Positions 5,586 through 15,230 of a stretch of 64,000 nt of DNA are shown piece after piece. Within the stretch, counting starts at the first letter, position 1; each line of letters starts with the position of its first letter. The notes under the pieces were generated by a model. The model worked only from the letters and a program-made list of their open reading frames with translations, had not been told where the DNA came from and did not search any database. This DNA comes from Salegentibacter agarivorans. Its GTDB lineage: Bacteria > Bacteroidota > Bacteroidia > Flavobacteriales > Flavobacteriaceae. The DNA lies in NCBI RefSeq assembly GCF_900113135.1, contig NZ_FOOH01000018.1:1-64000 (forward strand), written 5' to 3'. A program made the position numbers and the translations under genes.

Positions 5586-7052
5586 CTAGCTTAACTTCCA
5601 GCCATCACGATAATCTCTACGTACAAATTGATTGGCTTCGTCAAAATTAGTAACTCTCATTTCTTCTGAATTCCAGAGCATTTTTATATCACGCCCGGGA
5701 TATTCAAAATATTTATCTCCATTATCACGCATCTTTTCATTTCTAACATCGTAGCCTCTAATAGCTAAATTGGCAATTAGTAAAGTTTCAGTTAGCGGTC
5801 CTGCAATTTCAAAAGGAGAACTCAGTTCTTTTTTTCCGTAGCCGGCAATTGCGCCTTCTACCCATTGTGCATAATGGCCTTCTTCCCCACCGGGAACGCG
5901 GTCATATTTCTCCGCAACATTTACTTCGTCGGTTTTTGAAGTTGGCAATAAACGTGGATTTCTACCATAGGTACCACACATCATTTTTCCTTTATCTCCA
6001 ATAAATAATACGCCGTTTCCACCATCGCCAAAAGTTTCGTTTGGTCCAAGTTCTTCCGGTCTCTTTGGTTTAATTCCACCGTCCATCCAATGTAAAGTAA
6101 CATCTTCACTGGTTTTTTCGGTTTTTGGGAAGGTCATTACTGCGTGGCTGGAAGGTGGGCAACTTTCGGGGAAATAACCTCTTTGAAATTCATCTACATA
6201 AACGCTTCCTACACTACATTGTACATCTTTTGGATGGCCAAGGCCTAAAACACGGTAAGGCGCTTCAATTAGATGGCAACCCATATCGCCAAGTGCCCCG
6301 GTACCATAATCCCACCAGCCACGCCAGTTAAACGGAACTAATCCTTCAATATAATTTTTATACGGTGCAGTATTTAACCATAGATCCCAGTCTAAACCTT
6401 CAGGAACCGAAGTGGTTTTTCCTTTGGGCCACGGAATTCCCTGTGGCCATACAGGTCTATCTGTCCACACATAAACCGTATGTACTTTTCCTATAAGGTC
6501 GGCATCATACCATTCTCGCATTTTTCTAACTCCGTCGCCAGAAGCTCCCTGATTTCCCATTTGGGTCACCACTTCATATTTTTTAGCAGCTTCAGTTAAT
6601 TGCCTGGCTTCATAAATATCGTGAGTAAGTGGTTTTTGAACATACACCGGTTTACCTAATTCCATAGCTGCCATTGCCTGTATTGCGTGGCCGTGATCTG
6701 GCGTAGAAATGGAAACTGCATCTATATTTTTGGCTTCTTTCTCTAGCATTTCCCTGTAATCGGTATAAAACTTAGCTTTTGGGAAACGGGCTATAGAGCG
6801 TGCCGCCCTTTTTTTATCAACATCACACAAAAAACCAATATCGGCTTTCCCAGATTGGTGAAAGCTATTAATATCACTTTCCCCTTTTCCTCCTACTCCA
6901 ATTCCGGCAATTACCAGCTTATCACTTGGGGCTAAAAAACCGGGCCCTCCCATTACGTGCCGCGGAATAATACTAATTCCCGCCGTGGCCAAGGCAGTTG
7001 TTTTTAAAAAACTTCTTCTGGAATTAGATTTAGGGGTTTCATCTTTTTTCAT
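5586..7052 (-). CDS. Gfo/Idh/MocA family oxidoreductase with Tat signal
   Basis: 488 residues. The start SNSRRSFLKTTALATAG is a twin-arginine signal, so the folded enzyme is exported. A Rossmann segment (VIAGIGVGGKG) and the KPLTHD motif with its conserved lysine identify the NAD(P)-dependent Gfo/Idh/MocA family. The C-terminal half holds the long substrate domain usual in Bacteroidota members. Such exported proteins act on sugars or are annotated as glycoside-modifying enzymes; the substrate cannot be told here. It is followed after 24 bases by the 3D lipoprotein gene, possibly in the same transcript. Confidence 0.88.
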   Translation of the reverse strand: MKKDETPKSNSRRSFLKTTALATAGISIIPRHVMGGPGFLAPSDKLVIAGIGVGGKGESDINSFHQSGKADIGFLCDVDKKRAARSIARFPKAKFYTDYREMLEKEAKNIDAVSISTPDHGHAIQAMAAMELGKPVYVQKPLTHDIYEARQLTEAAKKYEVVTQMGNQGASGDGVRKMREWYDADLIGKVHTVYVWTDRPVWPQGIPWPKGKTTSVPEGLDWDLWLNTAPYKNYIEGLVPFNWRGWWDYGTGALGDMGCHLIEAPYRVLGLGHPKDVQCSVGSVYVDEFQRGYFPESCPPSSHAVMTFPKTEKTSEDVTLHWMDGGIKPKRPEELGPNETFGDGGNGVLFIGDKGKMMCGTYGRNPRLLPTSKTDEVNVAEKYDRVPGGEEGHYAQWVEGAIAGYGKKELSSPFEIAGPLTETLLIANLAIRGYDVRNEKMRDNGDKYFEYPGRDIKMLWNSEEMRVTNFDEANQFVRRDYRDGWKLS

Positions 7053-8375: not shown

Positions 8376-8495
8376 GGTTGGCTAAAAGTCTACTTTCGTC
8401 AAGCTTAACTTGTTCAGTTTCTAATATATGTTTTTCTAACATCTTAGATCCTGAAACAATTTCAGGATGACGAGTAAAAAAACTTTTAGCCAACC
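8376..8495. repeat. 120-bp element with 14-bp terminal inverted repeats
   Basis: GGTTGGCTAAAAGT at 8376-8389 and its exact reverse complement at 8482-8495 bound the segment. Inside lie CGTCAAGCTTAACTTG and the palindrome ATCCTGAAACAATTTCAGGAT (8448-8468) with GACG after it. The right arm contains the last codons and stop of the amidohydrolase gene. A short open frame through it gives a peptide of the HPEIVSGS type, a hallmark of such repeats and not of a protein. It may serve as a long bidirectional terminator or be a miniature repeat that moved in. Confidence 0.7.
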
Positions 8496-9166
8496 TCTTT
8501 TAATGCTATAAACACTGCATTTTTAATCCTATATTCCATTTTGTTTTGCGGCACAAATTTCTGGTTTACTTCCAATTCAATTCCCAAATAATTTTCATGG
8601 AATTTTTTACGTAAATAAGTAGTAAACCCATCTGCTTTCCCCAAATAGGGATAATTAAATCTGATCTTTAATTCAGGATTTTGATTCTTTATATTCTGCT
8701 TAAATTTTTTACTGAATTCTTTTTCTTCACTCCTTGACGGATCGTAAAGTAGCCCAATATCTGTATTTCTAATCTCTTCGTCTAATTTTGGAGTAAACGT
8801 GTGCACCGAAAAATGTAGTACCTTCTCCCCTTTTTCTATTATACTTGAAATTTGCTTTTCTACCGAATCTCGATATGGAAAATAATATTGAGTTAAAATT
8901 TCATTTTTCTGCTTTCCTGATAAATTTTTAGTGAATGCAGAAAACAAATTAGAATGCCCTTTAGATCTATTTACTTCCACTAACAAACGCCCCGTTTCGT
9001 GATAAAATGAAAAATCGGATAAGTCCTTTAGCTCCTTAAACAGATCTAAGGCACCGGGATCATAGCCACGGTGTGATTCCAGAGTTTCCATGGCATTAGT
9101 AAATAAATTTTGATATTCCTGCGGAATTGTATTAAAAGCGTGTTCGCAGGTTAAGACCAGTTTCAC
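8486..9166 (-). CDS. N-formylglutamate amidohydrolase family protein
   Basis: 226 residues. Family motifs are visible: TCEHA near the start, SHRGYDPGALDL, HETGRLLVEVNRS and HFSVHTFTP, which include the presumed zinc ligands. Known members hydrolyse N-formylglutamate or related N-acyl amides; in this context a hydrolase for a peptide-like product is more likely than histidine breakdown, since no other hut gene is near. The start is GTG, overlapping the preceding TGA by four bases (GTGA), which points to translational coupling. It is the last gene of the ligase operon, and its 3' end lies in the inverted-repeat element. Confidence 0.85.
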   Translation of the reverse strand: MKLVLTCEHAFNTIPQEYQNLFTNAMETLESHRGYDPGALDLFKELKDLSDFSFYHETGRLLVEVNRSKGHSNLFSAFTKNLSGKQKNEILTQYYFPYRDSVEKQISSIIEKGEKVLHFSVHTFTPKLDEEIRNTDIGLLYDPSRSEEKEFSKKFKQNIKNQNPELKIRFNYPYLGKADGFTTYLRKKFHENYLGIELEVNQKFVPQNKMEYRIKNAVFIALKEVG

Positions 9167-10383
9167 GGCTTAAAGAATTTATTTTCTTCAAGACAATCGG
9201 CTAGCTTAAAATAGGTTTTTTGAATATTTTCATCTGAAAAATCATCACCTAAGGCCTTTAAAATACGGGTTGAAAGACTTCCATTATTCAGTAGAAACTT
9301 TATGCTTTCCTGTTGTTTTTCTGCAATATTTCTTTTCACTTTTGAAAACAAAATCCGCCAGATCTCTTTAATTTCAATGGTTTGTGAAAGTCCGAAGATC
9401 TTAAGATATTCTTTGTTACTGATTTTAGTATTTTCGGCGTCCTTTATTACGGCATCAAATATTTCAAAAAGATCATTCTCGTGCCATTTTTTCTGTTTAC
9501 TAATAGCAATCAAATCTTCGCTAACCAGCAATTTCAAACATTCAATAATAAAAATAGCAATTGCCATATCGGCTTTTGGACATTCCTGAACGTCTATTAC
9601 GCGAATTTCTATTGCATTTCTATCAAAACGAGCAATAGCTCCACGGGAATTCAAAAAGTGATGATCCAGGATATTTTCTGTATCGTGCGGTTTGATCTTT
9701 TTATTAATCGGTTCAAAAATGGTTTTGTAATAATCGTCTTTAGAAAAAACCTGTTCCGGAATAACTTTTCCCGTCATCTCCGGAATTTCCTTTTGATTGG
9801 TTTTATATACCTGCATCCTGGCATCTTTAAAACCGGTATCTTTTCCTTCAAAAATAGGAGAACTGGCACTTAAAGCAGGGATTATAGGTAAAAGTAAACG
9901 CACTGCAGCGTGCAGTTTTTCAAATTCAGTATCATCAAAAAACGGAAGGTTTATATGCATACTTTGCACATTGCTCCAGCCGTGGCCGCTGCAATCAAAA
10001 ATTCTATTATAAAGTGCGTATATTTTACTGGAACTGTGTTTCCACAATTCGGTTTCAGTAACGGGATTCATTAAAGGATGGGCTGCCGAAGGTAAAAGCC
10101 TGGTGTTCTTCTCCTTTAGCAAAAGATTTACTTCTTTAATATTTTCAGCAAAAAGAAGATCTAGATTTTCTATATCTCCGGTTGGACCATTGGTTTTTAA
10201 TTCTACAACGTGAGCCACTAATTCGTTGCTCCATTCAATTTCTCCATTTTCAATATCTGAGGTAATTTCCCCATTTTTACTAATAAAAAGTTGGTCTACA
10301 ATTGGATTTACCTTAAAACTGGACGTATCTACAAGCATATATTCCAGTTCAATTCCAAAAACTTCAAAAAGATGATATTTCAT
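9163..10383 (-). CDS. GCS2-type carboxylate-amine ligase (glutamate-cysteine ligase family)
   Basis: 406 residues. The start FGIELEYMLVD and later motifs (WSNVQSMHINLPF, RGAIARFDRNAIEIRVIDVQE) place it in the GCS2 family (YbdK-like) of ATP-dependent carboxylate-amine ligases. Members join the gamma- or alpha-carboxylate of an amino acid, often glutamate, to an amine. The real substrates are unknown. It starts 2 bases after the RimK-like gene and overlaps the hydrolase gene by 4, so the three are surely co-expressed. Glutathione synthesis is not implied: no GshB-type partner is seen, and the RimK-like neighbour has a different N-domain. Confidence 0.88.
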   Translation of the reverse strand: MKYHLFEVFGIELEYMLVDTSSFKVNPIVDQLFISKNGEITSDIENGEIEWSNELVAHVVELKTNGPTGDIENLDLLFAENIKEVNLLLKEKNTRLLPSAAHPLMNPVTETELWKHSSSKIYALYNRIFDCSGHGWSNVQSMHINLPFFDDTEFEKLHAAVRLLLPIIPALSASSPIFEGKDTGFKDARMQVYKTNQKEIPEMTGKVIPEQVFSKDDYYKTIFEPINKKIKPHDTENILDHHFLNSRGAIARFDRNAIEIRVIDVQECPKADMAIAIFIIECLKLLVSEDLIAISKQKKWHENDLFEIFDAVIKDAENTKISNKEYLKIFGLSQTIEIKEIWRILFSKVKRNIAEKQQESIKFLLNNGSLSTRILKALGDDFSDENIQKTYFKLADCLEENKFFKP

Positions 10384-10385
10384 AA

Positions 10386-11837
10386 TTACTTCTTTTCTAA
10401 TCTTTCTTTTAATGCCGAAATGATCTCCATATAAACCTGTTCCCCATAGTACCCGTCTTCTACACCAAAGTCGATATTCGGATTATCATTAATTTCAATA
10501 ACAAGCGGCTTTCCTCCTACTTCTTTGATATCTATGCCGTAAAGTCCTTTCCCCATTAATTTAGCCGATTTTAATGCAGCTTCTAATATTTTCTTTGGAA
10601 CCTTTTCTATAGGTAAGCAATCTGCATTTCCGTCCTGGTCATCTTTTTCTTTAGCGTCCCAGTTGTAGATTTGCCAATGGCCTTTTGCCATATAATATCT
10701 ACAGGCATAAAAAGGTTTATTATCCAGAATTCCTATTCGCCAATCGTATTCTGATGGTGAAAATTCCTGCGCAATCACTAATTCCGATTTTTTAAGCATC
10801 ATAGTAACCAGTTCATGATATTCTGCCGGGGTTGTTGCTTTTTTCACTCCGAAAGAAAAAGTAGAATCGGGAGATTTTAAAACTACCGGCAATCCGGTAA
10901 TTTCAAGAACTTTATCTTTATTTTCTTTATGAATTATCACCGTTTTTGGAGTTGGAATATTGGCATTTTCTAAAGCCTCGGCCATATAAACTTTGTTGCA
11001 ACATTTCAGAATAGCATCTGGGTAATCTATGATGGCGATACCTTCCTGCTGGGCTTTTCTTGCAAAGGCATAAGCTTCATTATTTACTTCGGTACTTTGC
11101 CTTATAAACAAAGCATCAAAAGCAGATAAACGCGAAAGATCTTTAGGAGCAATTATTTCTACATAGAAATCCATTTTTTCAGCAATTTCTACGAATTTCT
11201 TTAATGCTTTGGCATTACTGGGCGGGGCGGGATCGTCTGGCTGTACTAAAATTGCCAAATCATATTCCGTAGTATTTGCACGAGGAGTGTCGTAACGTTT
11301 TTTAGCAAAATATTGCGCCGCAAAATCGTACATACTTTCTAAGTGATCCTCAGGTATTTCGGCTTCAGAAATAGCTTTAATACTTTTTATATTCCATTTT
11401 GTGGTATAATTGAATTTTACCCGTAAAAACGGAATTTGAAAATGGCGGTGAAACATCGCACTCAACTCTTTATATTTTTGCGCTACGTTTTGCCCAAAAT
11501 ATATACTAAGGGTAAATTCCTGTGATTTTATACTTTTTAAGCTGGTTTGCATTAAATTGTCAAACTCTTCTGAAACTATTTTTACCAGTTTCGGCTCTCG
11601 TAAATCAACGATATTTTTTACCGTAGGAATTGCCAAATGCCCGCGAGCTTCGGCTAAAAGTGAGACGTAATAACCTTTTGACTGATAAGAATAATCTTTG
11701 CAGAGGTTGAAAATCCTTGCATTTTTTAGCTTAGCAAACTCCGGATTGGTTAGATAAGATTGCGCTGAAATTATCTCAACATTATCCAGTTTTAACTTCC
11801 ACTTTTCAGGGTGGTTTACAATTATATATTTATTCAT
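10386..11837 (-). CDS. RLAN-domain RimK-like ATP-grasp ligase
   Basis: 483 residues. Residues about 1-180 match the RimK-like ATP-grasp N-terminal (RLAN) region. A second alpha/beta segment follows (about 190-280, DLAILVQPDDPAPPSNAKAL). The ATP-grasp domain occupies about 285-480 with PVVLKSPDSTFSFGVK, VIAQEFSPSEYDWRIGIL and the metal-binding VIEINDNPNIDFG. ATP-grasp enzymes of the RimK group add amino acids, often glutamate, to a peptide or small carboxylate through an acyl phosphate. The first gene of a three-gene operon with GCS2 and N-formylglutamate amidohydrolase-like genes, it probably builds a peptide-like metabolite or modifies a protein. Confidence 0.88.
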   Translation of the reverse strand: MNKYIIVNHPEKWKLKLDNVEIISAQSYLTNPEFAKLKNARIFNLCKDYSYQSKGYYVSLLAEARGHLAIPTVKNIVDLREPKLVKIVSEEFDNLMQTSLKSIKSQEFTLSIYFGQNVAQKYKELSAMFHRHFQIPFLRVKFNYTTKWNIKSIKAISEAEIPEDHLESMYDFAAQYFAKKRYDTPRANTTEYDLAILVQPDDPAPPSNAKALKKFVEIAEKMDFYVEIIAPKDLSRLSAFDALFIRQSTEVNNEAYAFARKAQQEGIAIIDYPDAILKCCNKVYMAEALENANIPTPKTVIIHKENKDKVLEITGLPVVLKSPDSTFSFGVKKATTPAEYHELVTMMLKKSELVIAQEFSPSEYDWRIGILDNKPFYACRYYMAKGHWQIYNWDAKEKDDQDGNADCLPIEKVPKKILEAALKSAKLMGKGLYGIDIKEVGGKPLVIEINDNPNIDFGVEDGYYGEQVYMEIISALKERLEKK

Positions 11838-11977
11838 TTAGAAATTGAAAATTCTATCAAATGTAGGAGAAAATTAAATACGTTTTGAATGAATTTTATC
11901 AAAATAAGTCATTCAATTTATTTCTTTAATTTTTATTAGTAATTTCAGGGCTTCAATAAAAATGAAAACCCATATAT

Positions 11978-13267
11978 ATGAAATTAAATCTTCTTAGTCT
12001 TGCGCTAATTTTCACGGGAAATCTGGTAGTAGCCCAACAAAATAGCGATGATGCTTTACTGGAAAAAGCTAAAGAAATTCACGAAAAGGTAATCACCATA
12101 GATACCCACGCCGATATTAATATCAATAATTTCACTGAGGAAAGAAATTATACTATGGATCTTGAAAACCAGGTAACGCTGCCCAAAATGGAAGCGGGCG
12201 GACTCGATGTGGCCTGGTTTATTGTTTATACCGGCCAGGATGAGCTTGATGGTGAAGGTTTTAAAAATGCGTATAAAAATGCAATGAGCAAGTTTGATGC
12301 TATTCATAAACTCGTTAAAGATTTTGCTCCAAATCAAATAGGTTTGGCCACCAACTCTGAAGAAGTGCGAAAATTAACTTCTGAAGGAAAAAAAGTAGCG
12401 ATGATTGGGGTAGAAAATGGATATCCTATAGGAAAAGATATTGAAAATGTTGAGAAGTTCTACGATCTTGGTGCCAGGTATATGTCACTTTCTCACCAGG
12501 GACATAGCCAGTTAAGTGATTCTAATACCGGTGAGGAAAATGATGAATGGTTGCACAACGGTCTTAGTAATTTAGGGAAAGAAGTGATTGCAGAAATGAA
12601 TCGACTGGGAATGATGATAGATGTTTCGCATCCTTCAAAAGAAGCTATAAAACAAATGTTTGAGCTTTCTAAAGCACCGCTTATCGCTTCCCACTCCTCT
12701 GCTCGTCAACTTTGCAACCATAGTCGAAATTTAGATGATGAACTTCTAATGTTATTTAAAGAACACGGCGGGGTTGTTCAAACCGTTGCTTTCAGTGCTT
12801 ATGTAGATACCGAAAAAACCCAGGCATTTAATAAAGCAAGCGATAAAGTTTATGAGAAAAAGGCTGAAGAAATGAGTTTTGAAGTTTTGCCACGCGATGC
12901 TGTAAGGGCTTTAAGCAATGAAGATAGAAATACTTACTACGCCGATTTTCAAAAAGTACGAGCTGCAGCAGCACCTGAAGTTGAACTATTAAAACAAAAA
13001 ATTGAACCTGTAGGAGTTTCAGATTTTGTAGATCATATAGACTATATGGTAGATTTAATTGGAATTGAGCACGTAGGAATTAGCTCAGATTTTGATGGTG
13101 GCGGCGGAATTGACGGCTGGCAGGATGCTTCAGAAACTTTAAACATTACCAAAGAATTGGTAAAACGCGGTTATACCGAAGCGGAAATCGCTAAGCTTTG
13201 GGGAGAAAATTTACTAAGAGTGATGGATGAAGTTGATGCCGTAGCTGCAGAACTTAAAAAAGCATAA
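11978..13267 (+). CDS. Exported membrane-type dipeptidase (peptidase M19)
   Basis: 429 residues with a signal peptide (1-19, ending VVAQ). Zinc ligands of the renal-dipeptidase family are visible: TIDTHADI at about residue 41, GVENGYPIG, MIDVSHPS, LIASHSSARQLCNHSRN and VGISSDFDGGGG. M19 enzymes hydrolyse dipeptides, including those with D- or dehydro residues, here in the periplasm. It is divergent from the amidoligase operon with 140 bases between them, which suggests, without proving, a shared peptide substrate. It ends in a strong terminator, behind which a group II intron has inserted. Confidence 0.92.
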   Translation: MKLNLLSLALIFTGNLVVAQQNSDDALLEKAKEIHEKVITIDTHADININNFTEERNYTMDLENQVTLPKMEAGGLDVAWFIVYTGQDELDGEGFKNAYKNAMSKFDAIHKLVKDFAPNQIGLATNSEEVRKLTSEGKKVAMIGVENGYPIGKDIENVEKFYDLGARYMSLSHQGHSQLSDSNTGEENDEWLHNGLSNLGKEVIAEMNRLGMMIDVSHPSKEAIKQMFELSKAPLIASHSSARQLCNHSRNLDDELLMLFKEHGGVVQTVAFSAYVDTEKTQAFNKASDKVYEKKAEEMSFEVLPRDAVRALSNEDRNTYYADFQKVRAAAAPEVELLKQKIEPVGVSDFVDHIDYMVDLIGIEHVGISSDFDGGGGIDGWQDASETLNITKELVKRGYTEAEIAKLWGENLLRVMDEVDAVAAELKKA

Positions 13268-13327: not shown

Positions 13328-15230
13328 GTGTGCCGTGCATGGCGTATAACTCGACGGTGAAAGTCCGTTATGAGGGTTTATAGCTACCTATCATTAGCTA
13401 AGAGCAAGGGTGTCCACCGCGAGGTGGAATCTGAAGGAAGCTTAGGGCAAAGTTCCGGCCCGAGGAACACGAACATCATAAGGCATATTCAGTTTGGACG
13501 AGTTTGCAATACAAAACGAAATCCTAAAGCTATACGGAAACTGAAGTGTAGATGATGCGGGCAAATGGAATGAAAGTTATATGTCTTACCGCGGGAGGGC
13601 TCACAGACGCGTGGAAACAAAGTATGAAATGCGGTTGAAACAAGATTTGTTGTGAGCATTCAGCCGATGCCATAGTACCGGATGGCCGACATCTTCCGGG
13701 AAGGGCTGAACCTTAAGGAAGTGAATAGTAAATGACTGTTACCTTGTGAAGGAAAGAATGCAGAAAATATCGCAAGATACCTGGCTGCAAAAGGATAGGG
13801 CGGCACCCGAAAGTTATGCAGGAGGGCAGACCTTTATAGGGATAACTGAAAACAACTTCACTGATCCTGATTACCAAAATTATGGACTACTGGAACAAAT
13901 CCTATCTCCGGCTAACCTAAACCGAGCCTTTAAAAAGGTACGGAATAATAAAGGAAGTGCCGGGGTGGATAAGATGGATGTCGAATCCCTACAGGATTAT
14001 CTTATCACTAATAAAGAGTTGCTAATCCAATCCATACTGGAGGGGAAGTACCGTCCCAATCCTGTTCGCCGGGTACACATACCCAAGGCGAATTCTAAAA
14101 ACAAGCGCAGCCTGGGTATTCCATCGGTAGTCGATCGGGTTATTCAACAGGCAATGGCGCAGGTGTTATCTCCAACCTTCGAGAAACAATTTTCCCCACA
14201 GAGCTACGGCTTCCGGCCAAACCGGAGTGCTCATAAAGCTGTAAAACAATGCCAGGCATTTATCACTGCGGGATATAAATACGCGGTGGATATGGACTTG
14301 GAGAAATTCTTTGATACCGTAAGTCAAAGTAAGCTTATTGAAGTACTCTCCCGAACCATTAAAGATGGAAGGGTGGTCTCCCTGATTCATAAATACCTCC
14401 GTGCCGGAGTGATGGAACGGGGAAGACTTAAGTCGAGCAAAAGGGGAGTTCCGCAGGGAGGTCCTTTAAGCCCGCTATTGAGCAATATTATACTCAATGA
14501 GCTGGATCAGGAACTCCATAGAAGGGGACATCGCTTTGTCCGCTATGCGGACGATCTTGTGATTTTATGCAAGAGCAAACGTAGTGCGCAACGCAGTCTT
14601 CGCAATATCATTCCCTTCATAGAGAATAAATTGTACCTCAAGGTAAATCAGGAGAAAACCGCTGTAGGCTATATCTCCAGAATTAAATTTCTGGGCTATG
14701 GTTTCTATAAAAGAAAAGAAGGTTGCCGGCTTCGAGCCCATCCCAGCAGCATTACCCGAATGCGGAAGCGAATTAAAGAGCTTACCAATAGGAGTAATGG
14801 TTGGGGAAATGAGCACAGGAAGCAGGAGCTCCGGCAGTATATAAGAGGCTGGGTAAACTATTTTAAGTTGGCTGATATGAAAACGTTGATGCCTAGAATA
14901 GACGAGTGGTATAGAAGACGACTCAGGATGATTATTTGGAAGCAATGGAAACGGATTAGAACCCGTTTTAGCAATCTCTTAAAACTTGGTTTATCCAAAT
15001 CCAAGGTAAGGGAATTTGCAAACACTCGAAAAGGCTATTGGCATATTGCCAGTAGTCCCATCCTTAACCGAACTATTACCACGGAACGCCTGGCTAAAGC
15101 TGGATATACCTTCTTTACGGATTGCTATAGGAAAGTCAGGGTGAACTAAGGAACCGCCGTATACGAGAACCGTACGTACGCGTGGTGTGAGAGGACAGAT
15201 AGGGAATTAATCCCTATCTTCCTACTCTAT
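13328..15230 (+). mobile_element. Complete group II intron inserted behind a terminator
   Basis: The 5' end GTGTGCCGTGCATGG, followed by GGTGAAAGTCC, AAGAGCAAGGGTGTCC and CTGAAGGAAG, is the standard 5' region of bacterial group II introns. It runs through the reverse transcriptase gene. After the stop, 15150-15195 forms the domain V-like hairpin (CCGTATACG / CGTACGTACG, GTGTGAGAGG). Domain VI (AGATAGGGA / TCCCTATCT) and the end CTACTCTAT follow. The length is about 1.9 kb. Base composition is richer in G+C than the neighbours. Ends are assigned by eye; with all domains and an intact enzyme it looks mobile. Confidence 0.88.
13746..15149 (+). CDS. ltrA: Group II intron reverse transcriptase/maturase
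   Basis: 467 residues if read from the GTG at 13746; an ATG at 13758 with AAGGAAAG just before it is an equally good start. Reverse transcriptase motifs are intact: NNKGSAGVDKMDVE, QSYGFRPNRSAHKAV, VDMDLEKFFDTV, GVPQGGPLSPLLSN, and the catalytic YADD in FVRYADDLVI. The maturase (X/thumb) region follows with QYIRGWVNYF and WKQWKR. I see no H-N-H endonuclease domain at the C-terminus. It splices and mobilises the intron that encodes it. Confidence 0.95.
   Translation: MKERMQKISQDTWLQKDRAAPESYAGGQTFIGITENNFTDPDYQNYGLLEQILSPANLNRAFKKVRNNKGSAGVDKMDVESLQDYLITNKELLIQSILEGKYRPNPVRRVHIPKANSKNKRSLGIPSVVDRVIQQAMAQVLSPTFEKQFSPQSYGFRPNRSAHKAVKQCQAFITAGYKYAVDMDLEKFFDTVSQSKLIEVLSRTIKDGRVVSLIHKYLRAGVMERGRLKSSKRGVPQGGPLSPLLSNIILNELDQELHRRGHRFVRYADDLVILCKSKRSAQRSLRNIIPFIENKLYLKVNQEKTAVGYISRIKFLGYGFYKRKEGCRLRAHPSSITRMRKRIKELTNRSNGWGNEHRKQELRQYIRGWVNYFKLADMKTLMPRIDEWYRRRLRMIIWKQWKRIRTRFSNLLKLGLSKSKVREFANTRKGYWHIASSPILNRTITTERLAKAGYTFFTDCYRKVRVN

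Follow-up and report, generated by a model that had tools for sequence, protein, structure and literature searches.

RLAN ligase genes are paired with either a GCS2 ligase or a GNAT gene: an amidoligase operon of Salegentibacter agarivorans and its relatives

We found that the RLAN/ATP-grasp ligase is paired either with a GCS2 ligase or with a GNAT protein, and in no sampled locus with both, which is the main new result of this analysis. Out of 128 non-redundant RLAN loci, 63 carried GCS2, 55 carried GNAT, 10 carried neither and 0 carried both. The N-formylglutamate-amidohydrolase-like protein (FGase) was encoded in 38 of the 63 GCS2 loci and in 0 of the 55 GNAT loci, and no GCS2 of this subfamily was matched at E 1e-5 in any of the 11 GNAT-type genomes searched whole (11/11). 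Locus labels were assigned by tblastn over all 197 loci, with GNAT detection queries taken from RLAN neighbours only. Locus L167, with a GCS2 stub at the contig end, was classed as 'neither', and left out of the counts were L084 (a split, divergent RLAN below 300 bits, beside a GNAT-C39 fusion) and L099 and L100 (no full RLAN).

On the RLAN tree, a GNAT clade of 8 rows was nested in the GCS2 part with an SH-aLRT of 98, and the GCS2/GNAT labels needed only 3 changes, which indicates few independent events behind the alternation. Since one of these changes depends on L160, where the GNAT lies two genes off, beyond an opposite-strand gene, the alternation may be little beyond two old lineages and one switch. 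In addition, 41 of the 55 GNAT loci came from a single Pseudomonadota sample, the GNAT was on the opposite strand in 22 of the 55, and GNATs can acylate unrelated targets.

In the window (the whole stretch of DNA that was analysed, 64,000 nucleotides), the GCS2 type is represented by the genes listed in Table 1. The RLAN and GCS2 ORFs are separated by the 2 bases 10384-10385, and the GCS2 stop and FGase start overlap by 4 bases (9163-9166, GTGA on the minus strand); ORFs and sequence thus confirmed the packing described in the first-pass annotation. Among the fetched loci, with duplicates kept, spacings from -60 to +30 nt were observed in 83 of 97 RLAN-GCS2 pairs and in 63 of 71 GCS2-FGase pairs, and this tight spacing across loci is more than chance. 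A scan of sigma-70 promoters and terminators gave chance levels (16 versus 13.6 and 2 versus 2.4, respectively), and neither a carrier protein nor a transporter was present in the window's gene list.

Table 1. Position and strand of the operon genes and the adjoining features in the window
Feature	Coordinates	Strand	Description
RLAN/ATP-grasp ORF	10386-11837	-	483 aa, ATG; operon's first gene (ORF calling, Pfam)
GCS2 ORF	9163-10383	-	406 aa, ATG; carboxylate-amine ligase, distinct GCS2 subfamily (Pfam)
FGase ORF (N-formylglutamate-amidohydrolase-like)	8486-9166	-	226 aa, GTG start (Pfam)
M19 dipeptidase ORF	11978-13267	+	429 aa, ATG; neighbour, judged outside the system
Divergent intergenic region RLAN(-)/M19(+)	11838-11977		140 bases; C39-like peptidase gene absent here

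Gene order and strand of the trio recurred across phyla, and the window shows the order, strand and close spacing that RLAN, GCS2 and FGase have in the C39-RLAN-GCS2-FGase operon (C39 is discussed below). When GCS2 was found within 3 kb of RLAN, all 100 loci (63/63 non-redundant) had it downstream in the same orientation, and it was the immediately next gene after RLAN in 59 of 59. Moreover, the trio was missing as a unit from one same-genus genome that retains the flanking genes. Together with the close spacing, these results support the earlier proposal that both ligases form one unit with the amidohydrolase. Among 80 taxon-assigned loci, representatives of 16 phyla had the RLAN-GCS2 pair and representatives of 10 had all three genes; these loci were the top 80 of at least 580 when ordered by similarity to the window, and are therefore biased toward GCS2 loci. 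FGase was missing from 25 and C39 from 13 of the 63 GCS2 loci, some of them on cut contigs, and thus neither is essential.

RLAN was detected in 44 of 395 genomes sampled from the window's phylum and in 72 of 398 Pseudomonadota genomes. The former include the window's own genome; wide loci were taken from 32 others, plus 8 chosen loci, while all 75 matches of the Pseudomonadota sample were covered (74 loci and L161). The expectation that homologues would lie next to each other held for RLAN of the window type and failed in Pseudomonadota, where 0 of 74 loci had GCS2 and 72 had GNAT, so that RLAN-GCS2 is one of two combinations.

The first gene encodes a member of the RLAN-type RimK-like ATP-grasp ligases. 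The RLAN domain (PF14401, 164.4 bits against a cut-off of 25) spans approximately residues 1-185 and is followed by a RimK/LysX-type ligase module at approximately residues 190-483, with ATP-grasp families also matched in Pfam. In an AlphaFold model of the protein (pLDDT 88.5, pTM 0.69), the ATP-grasp half matched LysX 3vpd best (Z 28.4 over 265 residues), with Z scores of 26.5-28.4 for LysX, ArgX and RimK and of 22.3 for glutathione synthetase 1gsa. The 50 best structural matches all left residues 1-185 uncovered, a comparison made with the whole-protein model that has no bearing on the novelty of the fold. The protein resembles the RimK/LysX/ArgX alpha-L-glutamate ligases in this ATP-grasp half and differs from them in its extra N-terminal domain, in its gene neighbours and in its scores, which were below the NCBIfam cut-offs for the RimK family (TIGR00768, 66.1 versus 143.4 bits) and LysX (TIGR02144, 57.8 versus 275.6 bits). 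An alignment of 51 sequences including the window's had 41 invariant columns, among them K282, K321, D365, R367, E448 and N450.

The second protein belongs to the GCS2 superfamily (PF04107, 94.5 bits against a cut-off of 21). E12, E14, H143, N145, R189, N245, R247 and E259 were invariant and R261 nearly invariant in 34 sequences including the window's, and the motifs ELE, HxN and ExR, as read in the alignment, were conserved. It shares the GCS2 family and a weak profile match to YbdK 1r8g (23.4 bits) with the YbdK/GshA-type ligases, but scored below their cut-offs (63.6 versus 176.4 for TIGR02050 and 64.5 versus 371 for NF010039); as for RLAN, it was under every cut-off of the curated functional models in NCBIfam. 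The third protein, judging from its score (PF05013, 65.7 bits against a cut-off of 28.9) and its conserved EH and H...H residues, is an FGase family member. Its nearest solved relative in a profile search was 2odf (Atu2144, E 7e-35), NCBIfam models gave no match at E 0.001, and E8, H9, R60, N66, R67, H118, H122, R133, E197 and E199 were invariant in 28 sequences including the window's. The conserved residues of the three proteins are active-site candidates.

Besides the alternation, the first-pass annotation had overlooked a C39-like gene before RLAN outside Flavobacteriaceae. Among the same 80 loci, again the top-ranked part of at least 580, RLAN was preceded by a gene for a papain-like C39 peptidase in 42 of 46 cases outside Flavobacteriaceae, and this gene was absent in 24 of 24 Flavobacteriaceae loci; of the 63 non-redundant GCS2 loci, 50 had it upstream of RLAN in the same orientation. 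At the window's locus no C39 gene lies upstream of RLAN. A move of the gene to another place in Flavobacteriaceae genomes was rejected, since neither the window's genome nor the other 99 of 100 genomes searched in the family gave a full-length C39 match. Partial matches were obtained in 6 of the 100; the matched ORFs measured about 740 aa in five cases and 124 aa in the sixth. A separate observation concerns a family of 576-591 aa, encoded on the same strand one to four genes upstream of RLAN in 10 loci, including Bizionia, Olleya, Winogradskyella, Lacinutrix and one unplaced Flavobacteriaceae; one member scanned gave no Pfam match. As an upstream replacement gene this family was discarded, given that it does not occur in Salegentibacter.

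The divergent M19 dipeptidase gene (Peptidase_M19, PF01244, 321.6 bits against a cut-off of 26), with an N-terminus that reads like a signal peptide, had been proposed to process or recycle the product. This role could not be maintained, and M19 was rejected as a partner of the system: among the loci compared, only those of Salegentibacter and Gramella have it next to RLAN, it is kept in the same-genus genome without the trio, and relatives that gave no full-length match to RLAN also encode it.

The absence of a precursor peptide nearby, also part of the earlier description, holds within 600-nt flanks at 28 Flavobacteriaceae loci, which yielded 239 short ORFs for comparison. Of the 18 short-ORF clusters that recur between loci, 17 were situated entirely or for the most part (at least 77%) on larger called ORFs; the 18th was a 16-aa ORF in 3 Salegentibacter loci. 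With no conserved short peptide in these flanks, a ribosomal precursor, as in graspetides (ATP-grasp RiPPs), was rejected. Beyond RLAN's own partners, the commonest neighbour family, DUF155, reached 9 of 128 non-redundant loci. As side observations, DUF2817, a possible hydrolase, recurred in 5 of the 128, and several smaller neighbour clusters were not assigned to families.

We give about even chances to the interpretation that the operon is a non-ribosomal maker and dismantler of a small amide-bonded amino-acid conjugate. In the scheme that we infer, with regard to all reactions, to the direction in which the hydrolases work and to the small-molecule acceptor, GCS2 would use ATP to couple a glutamate-like carboxylate to an amine through an amide bond, and an amino compound would thereby receive a gamma-glutamyl-type cap. 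With a free carboxylate as the acceptor, the RLAN/ATP-grasp enzyme would then attach another amino acid, in the manner of RimK, LysX/ArgX and NAAG synthetases, and the FGase-like enzyme would hydrolyse the cap amide or a by-product. C39, present in most of the other lineages of the GCS2 type, would cut the RLAN-made bond; Flavobacteriaceae, including this genome, have no C39. The structural matches of the ATP-grasp half, and those of the C39 partner model given below, are counted in favour of this scheme. As a GNAT can replace GCS2 and FGase, the N-cap would be exchangeable (gamma-glutamyl or acyl) and the RLAN step kept. More tentatively, these loci could make a group of bacterial non-ribosomal peptides with an N-cap, in which a lineage-swapped cap (GCS2 with its own amidohydrolase, or GNAT) is built around a conserved RLAN and papain-like peptidase, a counterpart of the NAAG/NAGGN logic that, counting no more than the RLAN-GCS2 pair, would reach at least 16 phyla.

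The main rival, which we judge rather unlikely, is protein or carrier tagging, in which RLAN would extend the C-terminus of a protein or carrier, GCS2 or GNAT would cap the tail and C39 would remove the tag. RimK acts on ribosomal protein S6 and LysX/ArgX on the carrier LysW, the closest structures to the model are LysX, ArgX and RimK, and the C39 peptidase and the RimK/LysX similarity suit tagging as well as a small conjugate. The two GNATs scanned also scored best against RimI (68.5 and 76.7 bits, under the cut-off of 86.4). The translation-linked family DUF155/RMND1 occurred in the vicinity of RLAN in 17 of 197 loci, a figure that includes one duplicate locus, and the two co-occur in Pseudomonadota (21 genomes with both versus 6.9 expected of 398). 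However, DUF155 was unmatched in the window's genome, its excess was not significant across the phylum of the window (4 with both versus 1.9 expected), RLAN scores far under the RimK and LysX cut-offs, and no short ORF is conserved in the flanks of the operon in Flavobacteriaceae. DUF155 as a partner is retained as a side lead only.

Improbable in our estimation is a glutathione-like low-molecular-weight thiol, for which GCS2 would make gamma-Glu-Cys, the ATP-grasp enzyme would add a third residue like GshB, and C39 would be a primitive phytochelatin synthase-like enzyme. GCS2 family membership and the 1gsa match agree with this, as does a C39 partner modelled from another genome, which matched C39 peptidases (6mpz, Z 16.2, 134 aligned) and tied with the phytochelatin synthase Alr0975-glutathione complex (2bu3, Z 16.0, 158 aligned); the Pfam matches of the two C39 proteins scanned included no phytochelatin synthase family. 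Nevertheless, the structural match denotes a common fold only. The GCS2 subfamily lies below the GshA and YbdK cut-offs, GST_N, the sole test of glutathione use, had no match in the window's genome, and the substitution of GCS2 by GNAT is ill-suited to a fixed thiol. Finally, salvage or detoxification, with ligases inactivating a noxious amine or acid by an amide, hydrolases reversing it and no dedicated product, seems very improbable: the patchy spread and the absence in a same-genus genome show that the cassette is dispensable, but four proteins are conserved across many phyla and, several smaller clusters notwithstanding, no neighbour family beyond RLAN's partners exceeds 9 of 128 loci.

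For the small conjugate, NAAG and NAGGN provide precedents of an analogous kind. Neighbourhoods of ATP-grasp, GCS2-like and GNAT amidoligases were reportedly surveyed by Iyer, Abhiman, Burroughs and Aravind in 2009. No paper on the operon or the RLAN product was found in the literature searched, the coverage of which did not extend to that survey, and part of our findings may already be contained in it. Rimkla is, by its name, presumably RimK-like. In the vertebrate NAAG pathway (Nat8l, Rimkla/NAAG synthetase, GCPII), as far as excerpts of the source describe it, NAAG synthetase uses glutamate and N-acetylaspartate, and Rimkla and Nat8l are the synthetase and precursor genes; the likeness, by analogy only, would be that a RimK-like ligase extends an amino acid already N-acylated and that a peptidase reverses this step (PMC8836185). 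According to excerpts of a second source, Ngg, termed a GNAT-family acetyltransferase, N-acetylates one glutamine and forms a peptide bond to a second, and the ngg operon includes a predicted peptidase; this N-capped dipeptide made by a bond-forming GNAT-family protein (asnO-ngg plus peptidase) is analogous to GNAT-RLAN fusions, but RLAN, GCS2 or FGase are not described in those excerpts (PMC8070244). The NAGGN synthetase model TIGR03103 was unmatched at E 0.001 by the 9 window proteins scanned, and the GNAT part of the L084 fusion matched it weakly (38.1 bits versus 569). In excerpts of citing papers, the 2009 survey is quoted for GNAT-fused DUF3335 papain-like proteins as possible peptide ligases or acetylases (PMC10318531) and for operons joining ligases of different folds (PMC4431377).

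The pairing of RLAN with a gamma-glutamyl-type ligase or an acetyltransferase, in none of the sampled loci with both, leads to a predicted product shape, an N-capped amide, and its either-or character gives two natural variants for comparison. RLAN is present in 44 of 395 and in 72 of 398 genomes of the two phylum-level samples, yet its product is unnamed in the literature found, and the presence or absence of the trio within one genus constitutes a natural knockout for metabolomics.

The first-pass annotation had described the genes for RLAN (an RLAN domain with a RimK/LysX-type ATP-grasp ligase), GCS2 (a glutamate-cysteine ligase family 2 ligase) and an N-formylglutamate-amidohydrolase-like enzyme (FGase) as tightly packed. 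This was borne out by the open reading frames (ORFs) and the window sequence, where RLAN, GCS2 and FGase follow in succession with a 2-base gap and then a 4-base GTGA overlap, and Pfam confirmed the families. Both ligases scored under the cut-off of each curated NCBIfam model matched, while zero models were matched by the FGase and M19 proteins at E 0.001. In the scan of named genomes, RLAN showed 95% identity to the Salegentibacter salinarum and S. lacus proteins, so the window, which opens a contig of a 4.3 Mb genome, very likely comes from a Salegentibacter. Compared with S. salinarum, identity is 95% for RLAN and 94% for GCS2 but drops to 74% for the FGase-like protein, which therefore evolves faster than its partners.

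Features of the window, and RLAN loci of other genomes with DUF155 nearby
Feature	Position or loci	Strand	Evidence or remark
GFO/IDH/MocA oxidoreductase	5586-7052		weak TAT-signal match
FGase-like	8486-9166	-	ORF, Pfam
GCS2	9163-10383	-	ORF, Pfam
RLAN/ATP-grasp	10386-11837	-	ORF, Pfam
M19 dipeptidase	11978-13267	divergent from RLAN	ORF, Pfam
Group II intron	13413-15149	+	between M19 and DJ-1/PfpI genes
Intron Rfam domains	13413-13584; 13627-13706	+	Rfam, 148 and 43.7 bits
Reverse-transcriptase/maturase ORF	13746-15149	+	RVT_1 148.2 bits, GIIM 70.5 bits
DUF155 near RLAN	L064, L065, L211, L217, L218, L221, L226, L227		among 17 loci

Of 14 further genomes in the genus, 13 carry a full-length RLAN protein. 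So do 2 of 22 genomes from other genera of the family (plus one contig-end fragment) and none of 23 from other families of the order. By profile, RLAN was detected in 44/395 genomes of the phylum sample and in 72/398 Pseudomonadota genomes. Among the best 80 of at least 580 named RLAN loci, ranked by nearness to the window, 70 had GCS2 within 3 kb, 3 had a GNAT acetyltransferase instead and 7 had neither; in these 80, the RLAN-GCS2 pair was present in 16 phyla and the trio with FGase in 10 (Bacteroidota, Balneolota, Ignavibacteriota, Fibrobacterota, Omnitrophota, Planctomycetota, Verrucomicrobiota, Thermodesulfobacteriota, Acidobacteriota and Pseudomonadota). The same three genes are annotated consecutively in a Legionella record. 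All 100 GCS2-type loci have GCS2 downstream of RLAN and in the same orientation. With duplicate loci kept, median spacing was -1 nt for RLAN-GCS2 (83 of 97 pairs within -60 to +30 nt), -4 nt for GCS2-FGase (63 of 71) and 2 nt for C39-RLAN (58 of 64), C39 being a papain-like peptidase gene upstream of RLAN in other lineages.

Again among the best 80 of at least 580 loci, a C39-like gene preceded RLAN on the same strand in 42 of the 46 named GCS2-type loci that lie outside Flavobacteriaceae and have over 800 nt of upstream sequence, and in none of the 24 named Flavobacteriaceae loci, one of which has 717 nt upstream only. When 100 Flavobacteriaceae genomes, that of the window among them, were searched by profile, six gave matches, all of them partial: five fall within ORFs some 740 aa long and the sixth in an ORF of 124 aa. 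Since C39 is missing at these loci and matched only partially in the genomes, this lineage appears to operate the system without it. Elsewhere the protein is highly conserved: Gln9, Cys15, His172 and Asp190, which we take to be the papain-type residues, are invariant in 12 sequences, and two scanned proteins match Peptidase_C39_2. For one C39 partner, taken from the L072 locus of a different genome, the predicted structure (pLDDT 88.8) matched C39 peptidase domains and, equally well, the glutathione-bound phytochelatin synthase Alr0975, which gave the longer alignment. In the RLAN model (pLDDT 88.5, pTM 0.69), the ATP-grasp half was closest to LysX, ArgX and RimK (Z 28.4, 27.7 and 27.2), with D-Ala-D-Ala ligases and glutathione synthetase as more distant matches. 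Such fold matches are no proof of function.

The proposal that the families act together agrees with the recurrence of the closely spaced unit over phyla, but in the Pseudomonadota sample RLAN is nearly always paired with GNAT. Every RLAN match in that sample was examined: 72/74 loci had GNAT within 3 kb, as a single protein or as a fusion with a C39-type DUF3335 domain, and 0/74 had GCS2. GNAT was missing from L191 and from L227, a truncated locus next to a DUF3335 gene; L161, from the centre genome and counted apart, has GCS2. All 197 RLAN loci comprised 100 with GCS2, 87 with GNAT, none with both and 10 with neither; after clustering at 80% identity (n=128), the counts were 63, 55, 0 and 10. 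In this non-redundant set, FGase occurred in 38/63 GCS2 loci versus 0/55 GNAT loci, and DUF3335 in 30/55 GNAT loci; the one FGase away from GCS2 is at an unlabelled locus (L142). GNAT lay within 400 nt of RLAN in 39/55 loci, including 13 fused or overlapping, and on its strand in only 33/55. Whole-genome searches found the GCS2 subfamily in 2/20 genomes, both with the GCS2 operon, and in 0/11 GNAT-type genomes. On the RLAN tree, partner labels change at least three times: in a supported GNAT clade of 8 rows nested in the GCS2 part, in a single weak locus (L160), and in a large, mainly Pseudomonadota group. The alternation is thus backed by few independent events, which is the main caution. GNAT-DUF3335 fusions and mixed ligase operons are credited in passages of PMC4431377 and PMC10318531 to Iyer et al. 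2009, a survey that may already include the four-gene operon. The present analysis yielded the alternation, the loss of C39 and the absence of the cassette from one genome, any of which may have been published earlier.

Upstream of the GNAT-C39/RLAN pair of L248 (6441-7846) lie two ORFs, one of 263 aa that matches no Pfam family and one of 205 aa that contains domains of sigma-70 regions 2 and 4; similar-sized ORFs hold that place in several related loci, and a link between the pair and a dedicated sigma factor is possible. A protein cluster beside RLAN recurs in five non-redundant loci, all GNAT-type or unlabelled, among them L209 (2490-3605); its scanned member is DUF2817 (PF10994, 380 bits).

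The M19 dipeptidase, previously proposed to process or recycle the product, is a bystander, and we rejected it as a system partner. It adjoins RLAN in Salegentibacter and Gramella loci only, and has relatives (64-65% identity) in two genomes without a full-length RLAN match (G015 and G027). In G005, of the same genus, M19, OsmC and the surrounding genes are kept in order, and the stretch from M19 to OsmC gave no match to any gene of the trio (RLAN, GCS2, FGase). The oxidoreductase beyond the trio, which resembles the BT_2158 glycoside 3-dehydrogenase family well under cut-off (462 vs 750 bits), had no match in the corresponding region of G005 either; hence, this stretch was altered in more than one way. 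Neither S. salinarum (L093) nor G005 gave a match to the intron maturase ORF in the corresponding region.

Tagging of a protein or carrier, instead of synthesis of a small capped amide, is a serious rival. It is strengthened by DUF155 (PF02582, of the RMND1/Sif2-Sif3 family), which is a near neighbour of RLAN in 17/197 loci, drawn from both types and with one locus fetched twice; 21 of 398 Pseudomonadota genomes have both versus 6.9 expected (Fisher p 4.5e-8, kinship uncorrected). However, DUF155 had no match in the window's genome, and co-occurrence in its phylum was not significant (4 of 395 versus 1.9 expected, p 0.11).

Whichever the locus type, the RLAN ligase has beside it an enzyme that may add an N-cap, either GCS2 or GNAT, and often a papain-like peptidase. 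While the genes are linked, the reactions are each ones that we infer. NAGGN (PMC8070244) and NAAG (PMC8836185), as described in passages of these sources, are precedents with the same capped-amide logic. The shared pattern suggests that the product of the system is a capped amide: GCS2 or GNAT would cap an amino compound, RLAN would extend it as an amino-acid ligase, and the peptidase and amidohydrolase would recycle it.
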